Of a stretch of 36,230 nt of DNA, positions 3,206 through 36,230 are shown in pieces; position 1 is the first letter of the stretch, and each line of letters opens with the position of its first letter. The translations under genes and the position numbers were made by a program. The notes below the pieces were generated by a model. The model was not told the origin of the DNA, searched no databases, and worked only from the letters and a program-made list of their open reading frames with translations. Location: the IMG/VR virus record IMGVR_UViG_3300021142_000090, positions 1-36,230 of that record. One strand, 5' to 3'. The stretch comes from a virus.

Positions 3206-6200
3206 CTACTTCTGCTTGAAGATGGCGTCGTAGAGCATGGACAAAAGTTCAGGGCTGTGCGTGGTGCGCGCTTCGCGTGAGATCGGGTATCCATCACTGT
3301 CCATCTGGACTGCCTCGACCTGGACCTCAACCTGAAACTGGTCGCTCGTGCCGTCAGCAAGTGAGATGGTGCTCGCGGTGATCCGACAAGGGAAGGTGAT
3401 GAGGCCGAGCTGTGTCTGCACCTCAACCGTGGCGAAGTCTCCGACACCGAAGTCGAGCACTCCGTATGGGCGGCCGGGGCCCGCATCGTAGATGATGTCG
3501 GCGGTGATGAGCGGCAGGTTGTTGTCGTTGTAGTAGCCGTCGGCCACCTGGTTCAGCGAGTCGATCTGGGTGAGGGTCGAAGCTGTGAAGGGATTGACGT
3601 GGCGACCGTACTTAGACAGCATGGACACCACTGACGCGTCGAAGTTCGCCGCCGTGTTGTTGGCAGTTTGTTTGGCCGCTTCCGTGGTCAGTGTCGAGTA
3701 GTTGTTGGGGCGCGGTGAGTAGCCGTAGATGAATGTGGCATCGGTTGGCTTCTGTCCGGGCGCGGCAGCTGGGCCCATTAGGTAGCCGCCGGCACCCTCA
3801 ACGCGCACAACGGTGGACAGCGCGTCCCACTTCGATGTGATGTTCACCTGGGCGGAGTTCCGTTCGGTAAAGATGAGTTCGCCGATGTGGTTAGTGCCGC
3901 GGTTCACGGCAATCTTTAACTGGCGGGTCTGCGGGTCTACCCAGAACTCGGCACCGCCGACAGCCTGGGTGCCGATCTGCTTGAATGCGGCAGACAAGAG
4001 AGAGTTGAGCTCGAACTTCACAGTCGTCTGGTGGTCGCGCGCGATACCCTTCACGTCGATCATGTCGCTCTCGAAGCCCAGTGAAAGGTTGCCTCCAAGT
4101 TTTGCTTGTTCGCGGTTGAGCAGGTCCTCAAAGATGCCCGTGTGTTGGCCAGGTACAGAGCCCAGGAAGATGTTCTGATAGACGAGCGAGTTGGGGTCGG
4201 CCCACGTCGCGTCTGGCGTTGCTTGGACGAGGCCCGGATACTCAATCGCACGGTGGGTAAGCAGTTCTTCGAGAAGGCTCATCGCCGTCAGGTCGAAGGT
4301 GGCTTCGGAACTGTTGTAGGTAGATGCCGTGATCGGCCCAAGTGCAATGCACTGGTCGCCAATGTAAACAACCACCTCGACCGCACCGGGCTCAACGAGG
4401 TTCAGGGGGTTGGAGAAATCACCGCCGAGCGCCTGCGATCGCCGAGCGAGTTCTTGGGCACTTACCGACAACTGCACCTGACCCGACCCCGCAAGGGCGT
4501 CCGTGACTTTCAGGTTGCTGATCTCTGAAAGGACACACAGTTGGGTAACAGAGTTCGGATCGGTAGGCGTGGCGTTGTGGTCCACCGTTTGGAGCACAAC
4601 CGTGACGCGCGAGGAGGCGATCACGCCGGTCACGGTTGTGCTGGCGCTGGTGCCGGCAGAGTTGGCGGCGGTGAGAGTGAAGCTGTATGGGCCCGTCACG
4701 CCGTCGGCAGGAACGAACGCGATCTGGACCTGGGTAGCGCTGTATGGCGTGACCGTCAGGGTTCCCCGAGTTGGGTCGTGCAATGTCGCGGTGAAGATGT
4801 CCTGGCTTAGTGGGCTCGGGTCAAAGGTCGAGAAGATCTGCATTGCACGGTGCTTGGGAGACAAGCCCGCGTAGTTTGGCTCGACGCTGGGCATGGTCGA
4901 GGGAAATGGCGCACCCGGTGCGGTCACGGCGTTGCCGACTTCGGCGGTAAAGACCGAGCGCGCACCGAACACCGGGAACTTCGCGTGGGTCGTATTGACG
5001 GCGACCGCATAGAAACTGAATGAGCCATTGAAGAACGATGGCGGCGTCACGGTGACATGGCGCTTTACCTTTGACGAGTCGTCGGACGGGATGACCAACA
5101 CCGTGGCGTAAGCGGGGTTGTCCATCAGAGGCGTTGGGTTGGGGATCGGGATCTGCAACTCGACTGCCCCACCGCTACTCCCATCGGAGACGTATGCCGT
5201 CGAAGACAGGAAGGTGCCGCCGCTACCTGTTAGCCCAATGTCAAGCCGCCACGATCCGGCCCCAGTTGGGGTGTAGTCAGGGTCATTCCATTCGAGGTCG
5301 AACGAGACCGACGAGTTCTCGGCAATCTGCGGCAGCTGTGATGTTGAGCCGGTCTGCACGATGAAGGGGGCGGTGGGGCCAACAGGCGGCACAACGCTGA
5401 CCGTGACTTTGGTCCAAGGTGACCAGGTACCGGAGCTGATTTCTTTTGCAGCGATGTAGATGTCACGAGAACCAGCCCAGTTCTCGGTGGACTGGAACTC
5501 TAACGAAGCCGAGCGGTCCGAATTAACACTCGGCAACACCGAAGCGGTACCAAGAATGGCGCTGGTGCTGTCCGTAAAGGTCAGCGTCGTAGATGCCCCC
5601 GTCGGGTTGGGCGTGTTGCTGATCGCCCACTGGATCGGCGAGGTGATCGTGTCCGTCGTCGTGAAGGTCTGCGTCGCGTTTCCACCGATGGGCATCGACA
5701 GGTTCTGGCCGACGGGTGCCGTCGGGTAGGCGTGAGCCCCACTAAGGGCAACAACGAAAACCGCGTTGTCGTTGGCTCCGGAGCGCTGTGCCGACAGCAA
5801 ATAGGCACGGTTCCCGGCAGGGTTGAGCGCCATGACGGTGGACTGAAAGAACCCAGTGACCGAACCAACAATCAGCTGGGCAGCGAGATCAACGACCTGA
5901 ATGCTGGGGTATGGTGAGCCGCTAACGAGGACATAAGTGGCCGAGCCCGTTGGGTCAATGGCAATGCTCGAAGGCGTGGTCGAGTTAGCAAACGATACGG
6001 ACCACGAAGAGGTCTGTGTCGCAATGTCCATTGCGGACAACTTCGAGGAACCCGATGACCCAATGGTCGCAATGAGCAACTGGGAGCTGTCTTGCGTTAC
6101 GGCCATGGCGGTCGGGTAGTCGGTAAGGGTGAAGCTGCTAGCAACTTCGTAAGTGCTGGTGTCGATAACCGAGATGGACCGGTTGTTGGTATGAACGAAG

Positions 6201-6676: not shown

Positions 6677-7539
6677 TAGATCAGCCACCCATCGGTCCAT
6701 TCAACTTGCGTAAAGTTGGCGAAACCTCCACCGCTGGCGGTCACTGACACGGTGTTGGCACCTGGGGCAACTGTTGGCCACGCCGATCCCACGACGCGAT
6801 ACTTCAACCCGCGAAGCGTTGCTTCGCCAGTGACAATCTGAATGTCTTCATAGCCAGGGCGCGTGGTGACGACAACGGTGGCCGGTCCGGTTAGGGGCAA
6901 GCCGGTGAGGTGAAGCGTCTCGCTGGTCTGGTCCGCGTGGACGATGGAGATGTCCAGCGATGACACAGTGCCACTGGTGGCAACTGTGATGGTCGGGTAG
7001 ACCTTGACGGTTCCTTGCGACGTCAAGGTGTAGCTGGGGGCATTGATGGTCCCCGTCGGTGTTGGGACTACTGCGCTGGCGTAGGGGTTGCCGGTCACGA
7101 ATGCGATCGTGAACTGGATTTCCAATGCGCTCATCGATGTCGGCTCCAACTTCTCGACCACGCCTTCGAGCTGAACGAGAGGCATTGTTGAGTTCGGCTG
7201 AAACCGCAACTTGATTGAGTTGGTCAGTGGGTCACCACACACATAGACAAGCTTCTGCCACAACTCATTGACAACATCGGTAGAGCTACCAAAGACCGTG
7301 CCCGAGATCGTCACGTCGCGGACATCGGCACGTCCAGAGGCCACGATGCCACCCGCGAAGGTTGGCAGGTGTTGGCGGCGAACGACGAGTGGGGCTGGGG
7401 TGATCAACGCGCTGTCAATGGTGTAGCCAAAGGCGTTGCCGCTGTTGTCAATGCTCGAAGCACCGACCACGCCAGGGGCAAAGCCCAGGTCGATCTGGGT
7501 GCCATCGGGGGCGATGAGGGTTGCTTGGGAGAGGATCAT
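6676..7539 (-). CDS. Distal tail (Dit-like) protein
   Basis: This 287-residue, beta-rich protein lies between the tape measure and the hub gene, the standard place for the siphovirus Dit protein that forms the ring joining tail tube to baseplate. Early text such as LIAPDGTQIDLG and the later VTGEATLRGLKYRV are typical of this family's tube-like N-domain and galectin-like C-domain, though I place it mainly by position and size. The ATG overlaps the tape-measure stop (ATGA), so the two genes are translationally coupled. Its own stop overlaps the hub start. Confidence 0.75.
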   Translation of the reverse strand: MILSQATLIAPDGTQIDLGFAPGVVGASSIDNSGNAFGYTIDSALITPAPLVVRRQHLPTFAGGIVASGRADVRDVTISGTVFGSSTDVVNELWQKLVYVCGDPLTNSIKLRFQPNSTMPLVQLEGVVEKLEPTSMSALEIQFTIAFVTGNPYASAVVPTPTGTINAPSYTLTSQGTVKVYPTITVATSGTVSSLDISIVHADQTSETLHLTGLPLTGPATVVVTTRPGYEDIQIVTGEATLRGLKYRVVGSAWPTVAPGANTVSVTASGGGFANFTQVEWTDGWLI

Positions 7540-17481: not shown

Positions 17482-17554
17482 GGAAGTTATCTAATCTCTT
17501 CTTATCTACGAGTGTGACGCCCCCTGTGACACAACGCGTTAGTCACGCGTGACA
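17482..17554 (-). promoter_or_regulatory. Promoter/operator element, copy driving the RusA-capsid unit
   Basis: Read on the minus strand, this 73-nt element matches 30143-30215 (plus) at 61 of 73 positions without gaps. It contains TGTCAC (17526-17531) and TAGATA (17503-17508) separated by exactly 17 nt, a credible -35/-10 pair. The upstream half carries the perfect palindrome GTCACGCGTGAC and further GTCAC words, likely operator sites. The conserved leader AAGAAGAGAT follows the -10. Confidence 0.75.
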
Positions 17555-25628: not shown

Positions 25629-27925
25629 TAGTACCAAATCTCAATCAGGCCGGGGGCTCCTGCGCCGCCGGGTCCGCCGGTTGCTCCTGCGCCGCCACCG
25701 CCACCACCGCAGCCGGGGGTCGTGGCCGTAGTGCCCGTGCCACCAGTCGTTGTTGCGGTAAAAGTAGTTTCCGAGGTTCCTGGCGTCGGAACGACTGCGG
25801 CATTGGTCGAAACCGTCGAGGCGGATCCGCCAAGACCACCGTGGTACGGCGACGCGCCCTGTGGTGTTCCACCAGAAGCCCCGCCGACGACGCCCATAAA
25901 GGGGACAAGGTTCTTCTGCTGGTTGTTGAACTGGCCACCGCCCGCTCCCGGGAAGGTGCTTGGCGCGGTGGTCGTGTAGGTGTAAACCGCCGTTCCGCCA
26001 TTTGCGTAGAGGCTGTATTGCCAGTTTGCAACGGTGGTCGCTGATCCGCCCACTCCACCCGTTCCACCTACTGCGGTGGCGATAGTCGTCGTAGTGGTCG
26101 TATCAACGAGACTGGTCGTACCGCCGGTACCGCCGGCACCACCACTGCCTGATCCGGCGGTTCCGGCTGTGCCGCCTGCTCCGATCGTGGCCGTAAGCGT
26201 GTCGCCAGGTGTGACGGGAACCCACTCAAATTTGACTTCACCAGCTGACCCGCCACCACCGCCGTAGTACGTGTTGATTCCGGCGCTACCTGCTCCGCCA
26301 CCACCACCTGCTCCGCCGCCGATGAGACGGGCGCGAATCACGGTGACGCCAACGGGGACCACGAAGGTTTGCCCACTCGACGTGAGCTTGGTGTAGCGCT
26401 GCCCGATCGGTAGCTGGCCATAGGTCGCCGCGTCAGTCGATGCGGTGCCGTTGGCGAGGCCCGTGATCTTGTTCGAGCCCATTGCGAGGGCACCTGACAT
26501 GGTGTCGCCGGTCTTGCTGACCTTGCCTGCGTCGGCAGTAGCGCGAGCGGACGCCTCGACGGCTACGGCGGCGTCGGTGTAAGCGGTGGTCGCGACCTGG
26601 GTGTTATTGGTGAGTGGCGTGGCGGTTGGTGCCGTCGGCGTGCCGGACAATGAGGGCGAAGCCTTTGGTGCGAGAAGGGCCTCGGCAGCCTCGGCTCGCG
26701 TTATCTCGGAGTTGAGGTTGGTCTGGACGGCCGCGGCAGCGCCACTGGCGTCGAAGTCGGTAGAAGCGTGAGTGGCGGCAGTGCCAAGGCCAAGGTTTGT
26801 GCGAGCAGTTGCGGCGCTGGCCAAGTCTGAAAGGTTGTTGGCCTTTTGGAGCATGCCCGCTTCGGCGGCTTCGGCACGAGCCTGCTCTGCGGCCACATCA
26901 GACGCTGCTCCACTCGCGGCGGTGATGACTGCGTTCGTGATCGCACTGGACACAAACTGCGTGGTTGCAATCTGGGTCGTGTTGGTGCCAGCCGTTGCCG
27001 TTGGTGCGGTGGGTGTGCCAGTGAGGGCTGGTGAGGCTAGTGGTGCGAGAAGTGCTTCGGCTGCCTTCGCGCGCGAAGTCTCCGCGGCGACTGCGGCGGT
27101 AGCAAAGCTCTCGGCGTTGGCCTGGGCGGTGGCCGCTGCGCCTGCCAAGTCGAAATCGGTAGCGGCGTGCGAAGCGGCGGAACCGAGCGCAGCGATGGCG
27201 GCAGCGATGGCCGCCGTGCGAGCGGTTGCTTCGCTGGCCACAGCACTGGTGGCAAATGCCTCCGCGGTGCTCTGTGCGCTGGCGGCACTACCGACAGCAT
27301 CAAAGTCGGTGGCGGCGTGGGTCGAAGCAGTGCCCAAGTTGAGCGCGGTGATCGAAGCTGTGATGGCAGTAGCTCGTGCTGACGCCTCTGCACTTATTGC
27401 GTTTGTGCGAGCCGTTGCTTCGGTGCTCACAGCGTTGGTGGCAAAGGTCTGGGCGGCAGACTGCGCAGCAGCGGCGGCACCAGCGGTGTCGAAGTCGGTT
27501 GCGGCGTGGCTGGCGGCTGTACCCAGCGTGGTGGCGGTCCACTTCGTGCCGTTGTAAGTCAGGACTTGACCGGACACCAAACCGGACAGTGCCACATCGG
27601 TGAGCGAGGCGAGAGTGGTGGTTTCCACCGGGACGACGGCCACCCAGTCGGTGCCGTTGTAGGTAAGGACGGATCCAGTAGGTGCCGGTGCGGTCACCCC
27701 GACGTTGCTAAGGCTTTCGAGGGCAATCGAGGGCATCTGCAAAAACGCCAGCATCGTGCCGGGGGCCGGCGTACCGCCAACGGTCACGCCATTGACTTCG
27801 GCTACACCGGACTGGTTGGAGGCGCTTGGCACCCACTGGGCACCGTCGAAGACGAGAGTAAAGCCAGCTTCGGGAGCGACGGTTTGCGACACGTCCCACA
27901 AGTTGGAAAGAAGAGGAACACCCAT
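25628..27925 (-). CDS. Tail fibre with collagen-like/Gly-rich adhesin C-terminus
   Basis: This is a 765-residue fibre from ATG 27925; the in-frame upstream codons overlap the pilin-like gene. The N-terminal third (EAGFTLVFDGAQWVPSA, VLTYNGTDWVAVVP) carries short repeats. Residues about 130-460 hold at least four AASHAATDFD-type helical coiled-coil repeats and two copies of the classic phage fibre unit TGTPTAPTATAGTNTTQIAT. Residues about 540-765 are extremely Gly-rich (GGGAGGGGGAGSAG, GGGGGGAGATGGPGG) and end PGLIEIWY. Such tips fold as packed polyglycine-II helices in some phage adhesins. It should recognise the host surface. Unusually, it lies upstream of terminase. Confidence 0.88.
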   Translation of the reverse strand: MGVPLLSNLWDVSQTVAPEAGFTLVFDGAQWVPSASNQSGVAEVNGVTVGGTPAPGTMLAFLQMPSIALESLSNVGVTAPAPTGSVLTYNGTDWVAVVPVETTTLASLTDVALSGLVSGQVLTYNGTKWTATTLGTAASHAATDFDTAGAAAAAQSAAQTFATNAVSTEATARTNAISAEASARATAITASITALNLGTASTHAATDFDAVGSAASAQSTAEAFATSAVASEATARTAAIAAAIAALGSAASHAATDFDLAGAAATAQANAESFATAAVAAETSRAKAAEALLAPLASPALTGTPTAPTATAGTNTTQIATTQFVSSAITNAVITAASGAASDVAAEQARAEAAEAGMLQKANNLSDLASAATARTNLGLGTAATHASTDFDASGAAAAVQTNLNSEITRAEAAEALLAPKASPSLSGTPTAPTATPLTNNTQVATTAYTDAAVAVEASARATADAGKVSKTGDTMSGALAMGSNKITGLANGTASTDAATYGQLPIGQRYTKLTSSGQTFVVPVGVTVIRARLIGGGAGGGGGAGSAGINTYYGGGGGSAGEVKFEWVPVTPGDTLTATIGAGGTAGTAGSGSGGAGGTGGTTSLVDTTTTTTIATAVGGTGGVGGSATTVANWQYSLYANGGTAVYTYTTTAPSTFPGAGGGQFNNQQKNLVPFMGVVGGASGGTPQGASPYHGGLGGSASTVSTNAAVVPTPGTSETTFTATTTGGTGTTATTPGCGGGGGGAGATGGPGGAGAPGLIEIWY
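26720..27530 (-). repeat. Internal repeats of the tail fibre gene
   Basis: Four copies of a unit encoding HAATDFD.AG.AA.AQ (near 26753, 27147, 27298 and 27486) occur, with intervening Ala/Glu coiled-coil text. They could recombine to change fibre length. Confidence 0.75.
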
Positions 27926-27934
27926 AGTGGTCCC

Positions 27935-27945
27935 TACCCTTGCTG
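27935..27945 (-). promoter_or_regulatory. Recurrent CAGCAAGGGTA motif before the tail fibre
   Basis: This near copy of the CAGCAAGGGTC word lies 9 nt ahead of the fibre ATG. It sits at the end of the preceding pilin-like gene. Confidence 0.4.
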
Positions 27946-28278
27946 TCAGCAGGGTGAGACAGTCGGGCTGGTGGTGGGCGTCGGCAGGTCTGCCGAGAAG
28001 CACGACGTGCCATCAGACCAGGTGATGGTGGTGCCAGACACGGTGGTGCTCCCGCTGGATCCCGACTCGTTGATAGCGGTGACCAACTCTTCGGGCCAGG
28101 TCTGACCGTTGAGCCCGTAAGTCGCAACCGCGGCCAGAGCCACGTTGTCAATCGAGTTGATCGCCACAGTCTGCTCGGCAGCCGACACGATCGGGGCGTT
28201 GGAGTTGGCGTCGAGTGCGTAGAGCGTGCCCGTCGTCGAGAGGGCGAGAACGGTCGTGATGATGGCGGCGAGTTTCAT
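27946..28278 (-). CDS. Small secreted or membrane-anchored protein, pilin-like
   Basis: This is a 110-residue protein from ATG 28278; weaker upstream starts (TTG 28311) would add a short leader. A hydrophobic helix AAIITTVLALSTTGTLYAL (3-21) begins the protein. After that come AAEQTVAINSIDNVALAAVATYGLNGQTWP and ITWSDGTSCFSADLP, described by parts. The Ala-rich helix, the residue pattern before TWP and the C-terminal beta hairpin with Cys recall type IV pilin-like or pseudopilin proteins, though the classic Gly/Phe-Glu prepilin site is absent. It is the first gene of the late minus unit, before the fibre. It may be a structural decoy, a lipoprotein-like surface protein or a virion component. 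Confidence 0.6.
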   Translation of the reverse strand: MKLAAIITTVLALSTTGTLYALDANSNAPIVSAAEQTVAINSIDNVALAAVATYGLNGQTWPEELVTAINESGSSGSTTVSGTTITWSDGTSCFSADLPTPTTSPTVSPC

Positions 28279-28358
28279 AGATTTCACAATTGGCGCAAAA
28301 TCTTGTTGCAAAACCGAAAAGTGCCTGCACGGTACTACTCACGCAACACAACCGATGT

Positions 28359-28490
28359 ATTCGACTGGTGCGATGAGCAGCGGTGTCGAGAGTTCGCAAC
28401 TGGTATTGAAGAACCAGTGCGGTGAGAAAACCTTCTCCTAATTTCTCGCTCCCGGCGACGCGGCACCGCTGCCCATCAGACCAGTCGAAT
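28359..28490. repeat. Large imperfect inverted repeat with internal hairpins (possible structured RNA or origin)
   Basis: The left arm 28359-28388 and the right arm 28461-28490 pair over about 30 positions with only three mismatches and one wobble. The words ATTCGACTGGT, GATG and GCAGCGGTG are shared in inverted form. The 72-nt interior holds ACTGGT/ACCAGT (28399-28418) and GAGAAA/TTTCTC pairs. The 376-bp gap between the pilin-like and 28655 genes has no other gene; the rest of it shows no feature I can name. Confidence 0.7.
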
Positions 28491-28654
28491 GAAACCTTGA
28501 TCGGTCGGCGCGTTGAGCACCGGGGCCCCAGCGGGCCCACGTAGTGGTTGCCTTCGTCAGCTCCCATTCGCCCAGCTCCGATGCTCACCGGGCCAATCGA
28601 TCAACCCAAAGCCCCTCGGGGCCGTGGGCTCCGAGTATCCAAGAAGGAGACCCC

Positions 28655-28969
28655 ATGTCCTATGAAACAGAGGACGAAGTACGAGAAGCCATGTTTGAGC
28701 TACTCGATGAAATGGACGCAGAGCACACCAGCCTGATGGAGGGCGGAGTGGAACTGTGGTCCGACCTGCCCGCCAAGAAGCTGCGCGACCTGTTTGACGT
28801 GTCGGTCTCGATCATCGAGAGCCCCTACATCAAGAGCGATGAAGTAGACGAGGAAATCCTGATTGCCAGGTCACTCCTCGGACTACTCGAAGACAAACTC
28901 ACCAACGTCGAGTTCGAGGATCTCTGCGACTCACTTCGTTGGTGGACATACCAGGCAATCTGGCGGTAG
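28655..28969 (+). CDS. Acidic protein, unknown, single-gene unit
   Basis: This 104-residue protein has a strong ribosome site (AAGGAGACCCC then ATG 28655). It is very acidic and helical (DEVREAMFELLDEMDAEH, DEEILIARSLLGLLEDKL). No HTH, signal or membrane segment is present and no family is recognised. A terminator lies about 30 nt downstream, so it is transcribed alone from the divergent gap that holds the inverted-repeat structure. Confidence 0.75.
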   Translation: MSYETEDEVREAMFELLDEMDAEHTSLMEGGVELWSDLPAKKLRDLFDVSVSIIESPYIKSDEVDEEILIARSLLGLLEDKLTNVEFEDLCDSLRWWTYQAIWR

Positions 28970-29175
28970 CGGATACCTGCATCGCAGCCTGAACCAACTA
29001 ACACCCCCCGGCCATCAACGCTGGGGGGTGTTTTGTTTACGCAGTGAAGAACCGTGATCACCGCGTTGGGATGCGGTCGGTGTTGCTCGTAGTAGAGCCA
29101 CCCAGCGATGGCGAGGAGAATGACGGCGACGATCCGGTTCCAGTGGGCGCGCACGAACCACCAAACCCAGGTCAT
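28825..29175 (-). CDS. Small membrane protein with an antisense tail over the next gene
   Basis: This is a 116-residue frame from ATG 29175, overlapping the previous stop (ATGA). It begins with a membrane helix (NRIVAVILLAIAGWLYY, about 13-29) and a short outside domain with Cys (LHCVNKTPPS, GSGCDAG). The final third runs through the terminator and 145 nt antisense to the gene at 28655-28969, and turns Ser-rich there. That tail looks like accidental coding, so the true stop may have been lost. Confidence 0.45.
   Translation of the reverse strand: MTWVWWFVRAHWNRIVAVILLAIAGWLYYEQHRPHPNAVITVLHCVNKTPPSVDGRGVLVGSGCDAGIRYRQIAWYVHQRSESQRSSNSTLVSLSSSSPRSDLAIRISSSTSSLLM
29001..29034 (+). terminator. 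Rho-independent terminator
   Basis: ACACCCCCC and GGGGGGTGT form a perfect 9-bp stem around a 13-nt loop, followed by TTTGTTT. It terminates gene 28655-28969. On the minus strand it lies inside the coding frame of the membrane protein above. Confidence 0.88.
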
Positions 29176-29591
29176 TGAGACACCACCTGGAAAGCGATCT
29201 CTGATGCCGTGAGTATTCCGCCACAGTCCTCGGCTATTGCCGCCGCGTCGTCCCACACCTCGTCGGTGAGTGGCGCCCCACCAGTCAGGTCGTGCCACAC
29301 CTCGGGGAAGTGGTGGGCGGCCAGAGACGTCTCGAAGAAGTAGTGCGGGCAGTCACCGGTGTGGAGCACGCACCTCACCGGCGGCTCTAACACCTTGTCG
29401 CCACAGAGGCCGCAGTGCATACAGGTAAACCACTCTTTTTTTGTCGAAAGAGCAGTGAAGCCCATACGCCTCGGCCCCAAGGCCCTGGCTGTCTGATCAA
29501 GTGACCAATCACAAGCGTGGTCTATGTTGCAGAACACGAGCCAACTACCACTGGGGAGTTTGAGGACGACGGGGGTTGTCTTGTCCCTCAT
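29172..29591 (-). CDS. Cys/His-rich protein, unknown
   Basis: This 139-residue protein starts at ATG 29591. It contains a metal-binding look: FTCMHCGLCGDKVLEPPVRC and HTGDCPHYFF, giving Cys pairs plus His. Outside it is mixed alpha/beta, with acidic DEVWDDAAAIAEDCGG near the end. I do not recognise a family. It overlaps the membrane gene downstream. The 108-bp gap on its upstream side shows no feature I can name. Confidence 0.68.
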   Translation of the reverse strand: MRDKTTPVVLKLPSGSWLVFCNIDHACDWSLDQTARALGPRRMGFTALSTKKEWFTCMHCGLCGDKVLEPPVRCVLHTGDCPHYFFETSLAAHHFPEVWHDLTGGAPLTDEVWDDAAAIAEDCGGILTASEIAFQVVSQ

Positions 29592-30142: not shown

Positions 30143-30215
30143 TGTCACGCGTTAGTCACGCGTTATGTCACACACCCTGTCACACGCGTAGATAAGAAGA
30201 GATGAGATAACTTCC
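30143..30215 (+). promoter_or_regulatory. Promoter/operator element, copy driving the replication unit
   Basis: This is the plus-strand copy of the 73-nt element found inverted at 17482-17554. TGTCAC (30166-30171) and TAGATA (30189-30194) are exactly 17 nt apart. Upstream are tandem GTCACGCGTTA repeats and a further GTCACACGCG, likely binding sites for a regulator. The leader AGATAAGAAGAGAT-AGATAACTTCC is the best-conserved part. Confidence 0.78.
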
Positions 30216-30229
30216 TGCGGCTCGTTGGT

Positions 30230-30250
30230 ATCACCCCTAAGGGTGATTTT
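30230..30250 (+). terminator. Possible attenuator hairpin in the replication leader
   Basis: ATCACCC and GGGTGAT form a 7-bp stem with a CTAA loop, then TTTTGG. It lies between the promoter element and the RecT-like gene and looks like a short terminator, so it could attenuate or be overcome by antitermination. The rest of the leader to 30377 holds no gene I can support. Confidence 0.55.
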
Positions 30251-30377
30251 GGCCGGCTCCCGAAAAAACTTGTCCGGGCCTATTGCACGGCCATGGGACG
30301 CCCGCACTGTACCTACCACGAGGTTGATCATCGGTATAGGAGCCGGTGCCTCGTGAAGGGCTGGGAGGCCCAACGTT

Positions 30378-33251: not shown

Positions 33252-34082
33252 ATGCACGACGACAAGGAACTGTGGAAGAAGTATCACGCGGCACTCGCGG
33301 CCGGTGACGAGGACACAGCGAAGAAGACCCGGGCGGAGATCGTCGAACTCCACTTGGGTTTTTTTCGTCAGTACGCCCAGCGCACTGCCTTTCCCAGTTG
33401 GACCCAAGACCAGAAGGACGAGTACTACCACGAGCTGGTGCTTGTCGCAGCATCAAAGGTGGACACCTACGACCCCGAGCGGGGCGCCAAGTTCATCACC
33501 CACGTGAAGCCCTACCTCCAACCGGTGCGGTGGAAGATCGAAGCGTCGCGCCAGGCAATCCCCACCGGCTACGAGACCGCACGGCTGCGCGCTCTGGTTC
33601 GGCGCCGTCAGTCCGAGGCGATGGGTCGCGGTGAAGAGCTGACGCACGAAGAACTGGCCGCCGAGCTCTCCCAAGTCCACGGCAAGAAGATCGGCGTTAA
33701 ACGCGTTGCCCGCATCGTGGAGAGCCCCGTGATCGTGTCCGGTGACCAGACGTTGCCCACGGGAACGGACAAGGCCGTCACCATCTTTGACCGCGTGTCG
33801 AGTCAGGACGACGTGGCCGACGTTGTGCAGGCGTCGTTGGAGAGTGAGCAAGCGATCGACGCGGTGCGCTCCGCCCTCGCCGATCTGAATCCGTCCCCCG
33901 CCGAGGTGCAGATCATTGAGCGCGTCTTCATGGCTGCGCCTCGCGTCGTGGACGGATCCGAGGTTTTGTCTCCGGGCCCAGCCAGTGACGCAGACCTCGC
34001 CAGGGACTTGGGCATTCCCGAGGCGAGCGTGGCCGAGCTTCGCGAAGTTCTGGCGGACCGCCTGCGCTGGCTGCTCGGTTGA
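33252..34082 (+). CDS. Sigma-70-like RNA polymerase sigma factor
   Basis: This 276-residue protein has three recognisable sigma regions. Region 2: residues about 28-105, with VELHLGFFRQYAQ, the DQKDEYYHELVLVAA stretch and SKVDTYDPERGAKFITHVKP, matching the conserved YDPxRGxKF pattern. Region 3: about 110-170, with ELTHEELAAELSQVHGKKIG. Region 4: about 205-276, with DLARDLGIPEASVAELRE, the helix that would bind the -35 hexamer. The start is uncertain: ATG 33252 lacks a good ribosome site, and GTG 33243 is possible. A phage sigma factor here would redirect host polymerase, perhaps to the TGTCAC-17-TAGATA promoters. Confidence 0.8.
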   Translation: MHDDKELWKKYHAALAAGDEDTAKKTRAEIVELHLGFFRQYAQRTAFPSWTQDQKDEYYHELVLVAASKVDTYDPERGAKFITHVKPYLQPVRWKIEASRQAIPTGYETARLRALVRRRQSEAMGRGEELTHEELAAELSQVHGKKIGVKRVARIVESPVIVSGDQTLPTGTDKAVTIFDRVSSQDDVADVVQASLESEQAIDAVRSALADLNPSPAEVQIIERVFMAAPRVVDGSEVLSPGPASDADLARDLGIPEASVAELREVLADRLRWLLG

Positions 34083-35549: not shown

Positions 35550-36230
35550 AGCCGGGCCCCGAGATCCGGGTGTGGTCCGTCCAGTTGCGTCGCGGTGCGC
35601 GTAGCCGCCCGTACTTCGTCCGTTGGTCTGTGAACGGCACCGAGCGTGGCCCCAAGACGTTTCCCACCTTCGAGGAGGCCGACGCGTATCGAATGCGACT
35701 GGCCCTCGCCGCGCGTGACGGGATGAAGTGGGACCTGACGACGGGGCTACCAGTTGCGTGGAGTGAGCTGGGTGAACTCGACGTGGCTTCATTCTGCCGT
35801 TCCTACTGGCGCAAGCGGGCAAAGGGACTGAAACCACGCTCGCGAGCTGCCTGGGCAGAGACGTTGAGTCGCTTCGTGGCCGCGGCAATGCCGAGCCGCG
35901 CTGCGGCTATGCCTGGGAAGATGAATGACCTCGCTCGTTGGGTGTCGGGCGATGACGTCCCCGCAATCCAAGAATGGGTGTCGCGTTGGTCACCCAAGAT
36001 GAGCAGTCTCGACGCACGCAAGCTCGAAAGGGTCCACGATGCGCTCTTGGTTGGTGTCGATGGCGACCCACTTAGCGCCGCCACCCTGCGCCGTCGCTTC
36101 ACCCACGCCCTAGCCGTGCTGAACGCTGCGGTGAAGGAGGGTCTGCTCGAAACCGTGGAGCTCGAGAAGCCGACCGACGCCTACTACGAGAATGTCGCGA
36201 CGGTCATCGACATGAAGTTCCCCAACTTGG
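35546..36230 (+). CDS. int: Tyrosine integrase, 5' part (truncated by the window end)
   Basis: This is the first part of the integrase described at 1-726. ATG 35546 overlaps the HTH protein's stop. Residues about 10-65 read VQLRRGARSRPYFVRWSVNG and FPTFEEADAYRMRLALAARD, matching the AP2-like/arm-binding N-domain of phage integrases. Residues about 80-200 form the helical core-binding domain (SFCRSYWRKRAKGLKPRSRA). Codon 187 starts at 36104, so bases 36104-36230 duplicate the start of the window and should be counted once. Confidence 0.93.
   Translation, partial: MKPGPEIRVWSVQLRRGARSRPYFVRWSVNGTERGPKTFPTFEEADAYRMRLALAARDGMKWDLTTGLPVAWSELGELDVASFCRSYWRKRAKGLKPRSRAAWAETLSRFVAAAMPSRAAAMPGKMNDLARWVSGDDVPAIQEWVSRWSPKMSSLDARKLERVHDALLVGVDGDPLSAATLRRRFTHALAVLNAAVKEGLLETVELEKPTDAYYENVATVIDMKFPNL
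36104..36230. repeat. Terminal direct repeat, right copy (circular overlap)
   Basis: This is identical to bases 1-127. Removing one copy gives a 36,103-bp circle. Confidence 0.95.

Follow-up and report, generated by a model that had tools for sequence, protein, structure and literature searches.

What role does a long palindrome play in the gap between the divergent late genes of a phage and a small gene on the opposite strand? The window (the whole 36,230-nucleotide stretch of DNA analysed) contains such a palindrome at positions 28359-28490, and an earlier note had described it as a possible structured RNA, origin or regulator. The explanation that we favour, and hold to be reasonably probable, is that it would fold as RNA into a hairpin, close to where a long untranslated leader (~28341-28654) of a single-gene + strand unit, 28655-28969, begins. 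Because it carries a 127-bp terminal direct repeat (1-127 = 36104-36230), the window, an IMG/VR record, is probably a circular phage genome of ~36.1 kb. Late genes occupy the - strand from 28278 downwards, the first of them (27948-28278) encoding a protein of 110 aa whose N-terminus resembles a signal sequence. On the + strand, genes for RecT, a replication initiator and a DnaB-like helicase follow from 30378. The early operon also encodes a phage sigma factor (33276-34082; PHROG 351, E 5e-8). The nearest annotated phages were distant.

An inverted-repeat search placed the two arms of the palindrome at 28359-28388 and 28461-28490 (30 nt each, 87% complementary, with 72 nt between them), and they form the longest short-range inverted repeat of the whole window. 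The palindrome of the earlier note is real and has the coordinates given there, and the note's figure of 376 bp for the gap (28279-28654) was correct. Fold prediction, which had been proposed as a check, gave -68.8 kcal/mol for the 132-nt + strand RNA compared with -39.5 kcal/mol for shuffled sequences (z -7.4), with 0 of 200 shuffles as good. The interior is branched, as had been claimed, but the + strand fold contains three inner hairpins and not two. The - strand folded equally well. The mispairings between the arms include a U-G and an A-C when the + strand is read, and these roles swap on the - strand, so the G-U wobble that had been taken as a hint of selection on RNA does not carry that meaning here. 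By raw folding energy alone the region is not unique, being the third-lowest + strand window in a GC-rich genome; arm length, position and conservation are what distinguish the hairpin. The gap as a whole had a z of -6.0, and eight other gaps that were folded ranged from +1.0 to -3.9, with terminators in the most negative ones. A second branched but weaker hairpin (28497-28604, + strand, z -3.9) was found in the window only, and its similarity to the L004 and L006 hairpins described below was not significant.

A search of the entire window against Rfam 15 gave no matches above the gathering cut-offs, in keeping with the view that no known RNA family is present, and a permissive search returned microRNA and lncRNA noise alone, far under the cut-offs. 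Intrinsic termination by the palindrome was considered and rejected. The sequence following 28490 is GAAACCTTGATCGG, which does not provide a direct U-run, and a scan of 27900-29200 for a GC-rich hairpin with a direct U-run detected none between the hairpin and the gene; the only terminator-like hairpin with a T-run was at 29000-29032 on the + strand, after the gene. A non-coding core between 30-nt terminal inverted repeats could also suggest the remnant of a MITE-like mobile element. Such an origin is extremely improbable, as the structure is present in a single copy in the window, lacks a target-site duplication and recurs as a covarying stem at the corresponding position in relatives that have diverged.

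These relatives were sought by scanning viral contigs with RecT, terL and dnaB. The same layout was found in only two other independent lineages, L004 (contig 3300006111_000003) and L005/L006; L005 and L006 are identical in the gap, so that three independent sequences, including the window, were available. In both L004 and L006 the gap is bordered on one side by a homolog of the signal-peptide-like gene and on the other by a small + strand gene, past which all share an opposing gene. Neither the signal-peptide gene nor the conserved blocks were seen in more distant terL/dnaB relatives (L026-L029, L048-L050). No relatives were recovered by single-protein queries with the product of gene 28655 or terL, by an exact search for the arm pattern, or by RecT and terL queries against GTDB genome contigs, where no prophage was found either. 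A pattern search with the ribosome-binding site (RBS) motif matched only the L004 contig and, by chance, a coding sequence in L021.

We found that the divergent gap of both relatives likewise contains a large hairpin (L004 5875-5944, z -7.9; L006 ~6897-6983, z -5.3), with whole-gap z values of -4.9 and -4.8. The upstream block at 28283-28357, which holds a promoter-like motif, aligned with L006 (p = 0.002) and L004 (p = 0.006) relative to dinucleotide shuffles, though by the same measure L004 and L006 did not align significantly with each other. The block at 28605-28654, ahead of the ATG of the + strand gene, aligned in all three pairs (p <= 0.006). The hairpins themselves aligned weakly (p = 0.02, 0.04 and 0.12). 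Since the flanks align and the hairpins do so only weakly, the comparison indicates that structure is held in a homologous slot while the letters drift.

In a MAFFT alignment of the arms, built from sequence alone for the three phages, 61 of 63 cells were standard pairs (96.8%) and 14 of 22 pairs had changed on both sides. This level of pairing was reached by none of 500 shuffles and fell to 32-44% in slid registers. The arms of each phage paired with one another at -47 to -50 kcal/mol, whereas arms swapped between phages gave -18 to -31 kcal/mol. Hand alignment revealed a conserved G-G mismatch and adjacent invariant pairs common to the three stems. Hairpins aligned stem to stem always show 'compensatory' columns, and a separate stem-homology test was therefore run. 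Only the window-L004 comparison reached significance (p = 0.0015); L004-L006 was marginal (0.08) and window-L006 showed none (0.36), so the homology of all three stems rests also on synteny. Because the fold was kept at the same place in two related phages while its sequence changed, the structure is under selection, and the covariation check suggested at the outset came out in its favour. We regard it as very probable that the palindrome works as folded RNA at the beginning of the small gene's mRNA.

The relatives also bear on which strand, or which nucleic acid, is involved. The L004 stem folded at -50.1 kcal/mol on the + strand and -42.1 kcal/mol on the - strand, since each of its G-U pairs corresponds to an A-C mismatch on the - strand; for L006 the strands were about even overall. 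The L004 G-U pairs favour a + strand reading. If the palindrome acted as DNA (as an origin, cruciform, packaging or recombination site), the hairpin would also keep compensatory changes, and the equal folding of both strands in the window would be expected. We regard this as rather improbable, given that the L004 pairs are mismatches on the opposite strand, that the tyrosine integrase gene, which runs across the contig join, is ~7 kb away, and that terS/terL are at 23.0-24.8 kb. The origin reading of the earlier note is disfavoured: no iteron-type arrangement, with repeated initiator sites beside an A+T-rich or purine-rich stretch, was noted at 28279-28654. Repeated GTCACGCG-type sites (30144-30179) occur instead beside an A+G-rich stretch within 30143-30215, a region that adjoins the recombination and replication genes and makes a better origin candidate. 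The 73-bp block at 30143-30215, with its GTCACGCG-type repeats and A+G-rich stretch, is present a second time, inverted (84%), at 17482-17554, and we consider the pair a candidate origin or shared regulatory region.

A - strand RNA could serve the late operon, which begins at 28278, as its leader or as an antitermination element. In each of the three phages 80-140 nt separate the hairpin from the first late gene downstream of it, and the - strand folds well too in the window. The loss of 8 kcal/mol on that strand in L004 argues against such a role, as does the promoter motif of the gap, which points the other way; no - strand start signal was identified in the gap. We judge this reading highly doubtful.

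The promoter-like motif on the + strand, TTGCAA-N17-ACGGTA (28306-28334), is ~25 nt ahead of the hairpin, has a counterpart at 30283 in the leader of recT and would place the transcription start at ~28341. A relaxed form, TTG-N20-ACNSTM, which differs from the standard -10 element of sigma-70, had 8 matches in the window, of which 5 were wholly intergenic and preceded a gene start on their own strand (17981, 28306, 30283 and 34085 on the + strand, 30129 on the - strand). With gene starts taken from our own calls, this placement had P = 0.003 for the six matches outside the motif derivation, while 0 of 5 matches to a reversed control pattern were so placed. Equivalent sites were found in L004 (5823) and L006 (6820). 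When a profile of the upstream block was used, the next-best site in L006 was the recT leader, with an E of only 1.1. The distance from motif to start codon is 43-75 nt at the other four sites and 321 nt at 28306, which would make this leader unusually long. Because the motif is also placed ahead of recT and of three further genes, the + strand transcript is likely to be a long 5' leader of gene 28655-28969, ~314 nt in length (~28341-28654).

The same promoter might alternatively make a small non-coding RNA that acts by itself, its transcript being processed or terminated ahead of the gene. Cluster A mycobacteriophages produce abundant early small non-coding RNAs from Pleft, and those of L5, D29 and StarStuff are abundant, stable and toxic (PMC5712189). 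These are the nearest precedent for an RNA of this kind, membership not being claimed: they too come from a non-coding stretch transcribed from an early promoter in an actinobacteriophage, but a DNA search of the phage collection returned nothing similar, and in the window the stretch is directly followed by a gene whose RBS block is conserved. The proximity of motif and hairpin and the strong 5' structure fit a small RNA. The lack of an intrinsic terminator ahead of the gene does not, and the most conserved part of the transcript sequence directly precedes the gene start codon, pointing to a leader. Overall, a stand-alone RNA appears unlikely.

For a leader, the following mechanism can be proposed. 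An early-type promoter at 28306-28334, its motif common to recT and three other gene starts, would initiate a + strand transcript that is predicted to fold into the long stem at 28359-28490, with covariation in two relatives. At the leader end, a GUG-triloop hairpin and a helix masking the Shine-Dalgarno sequence and ATG are computed to be near-isoenergetic in the three phages, and translation may be turned up or down by this competition. The big stem would most likely protect or insulate the RNA 5' end, or provide a platform for an acting protein.

The GUG-triloop hairpin (helix 2:3, CTCGGGGCC-GTG-GGCTCCGAG, 28615-28635, + strand) lies in the conserved block at the leader end of all three phages, and its site is single in the window at up to 3 mismatches. 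Its predicted competitors, on the same strand, are helix 1:2 (GCCC-CTCG-GGGC, 28611-28622) and the weakly supported helix 3:4 (28623-28632 with 28646-28657), which covers GGAG and the ATG. The masking helix hides the Shine-Dalgarno sequence in all three phages and the start codon too in the window and L004. In constrained whole-leader folds the 2:3 and 3:4 states differed by no more than ~2 kcal/mol in any of the three phages, and the Shine-Dalgarno GG was mostly paired in the predicted ensembles. As helix 3:4 of L006 uses a different pairing register, the folds are suggestive of RBS masking, and of a bistable RBS switch (2:3 versus 3:4), rather than a demonstration of it. In ermC-type translational attenuators, helices 1:2 and 3:4 (RBS masked) alternate with 2:3 (RBS free). 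The window leader may follow the same logic, but unlike them it has no conserved leader peptide overlapping segment 1; no conserved small ORF was found in the three leaders, and leader-peptide attenuation was rejected. Upstream open frames were also rejected as an N-terminal extension of the gene, the frame of the conserved RBS motif in the window differing from that in L004 and L006, so the RBS block is not conserved as protein sequence.

In phage T4, start-region helices in the gene e, soc, 49 and I-TevI leaders mask the Shine-Dalgarno sequence or AUG (PMC3014915). As in those leaders, a phage mRNA initiation region can apparently be folded shut, with the outcome set by upstream leader sequence; the window differs in that a long covarying stem is added at a distance upstream, and a search for a late promoter downstream identified none. 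The T4 leaders have no known sequence relation to that of the window, and we regard them as the nearest precedent in mechanism (PMC3014915) without claiming membership. The T4/RB69 gene 43 and gene 32 operators have been demonstrated to bind their own gene products (PMC3014915). The GUG-triloop hairpin, which immediately precedes the RBS and is conserved in all three phages, resembles them as a candidate protein-binding site shortly before the start codon. Unlike those operators, however, it has no known binder, and the window gene encodes an acidic, helical protein without a recognised RNA-binding domain.

This 104-aa protein (28655-28969, + strand) was assigned to no family in family searches, and its all-helical model (pLDDT 74.8) found no match in a fold search. 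The corresponding proteins of the relatives are only 17-19% identical to it. With a promoter and terminator of its own, the unit looks like a phage 'moron'.

The fold, kept in two relatives with covariation, thus lies 3' of a promoter-like motif and 5' of a conserved RBS hairpin, which upholds the 'structured RNA or regulator' part of the initial proposal. We conclude that the element is best read as a structured and probably regulatory phage mRNA leader. A more speculative possibility, which we put forward only tentatively, is that such phage leaders form an RNA switch of a new class, in which the covarying 5' stem and bistable start region would sense a protein or ligand of phage or host origin and time the production of a fast-evolving small protein. 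The leader gave no match in Rfam, and compensatory changes preserve its stem even though the gene that follows has diverged until it is hardly recognisable. If real, the RBS switch would be an added translational control point in a poorly studied, uncultured phage group.

Two further observations were made around recT. An exact 16-bp palindrome, TCACCC-N4-GGGTGA, precedes recT in all three phages (window 30231-30246, L004 8931-8946, L006 8730-8745), and a second copy occurs in the hairpin gap of L004 only (5781-5796). It looks like a repressor operator, in which case the L004 leader would share a regulator with recT. In addition, the recT Shine-Dalgarno sequence apparently sits in the loop of a small hairpin (window ~30350-30377), also seen in the L004 and L006 recT leaders, and by eye its stem varies by paired changes (GGGC/GCCC, GGG/CCC, GGGU/ACCC).
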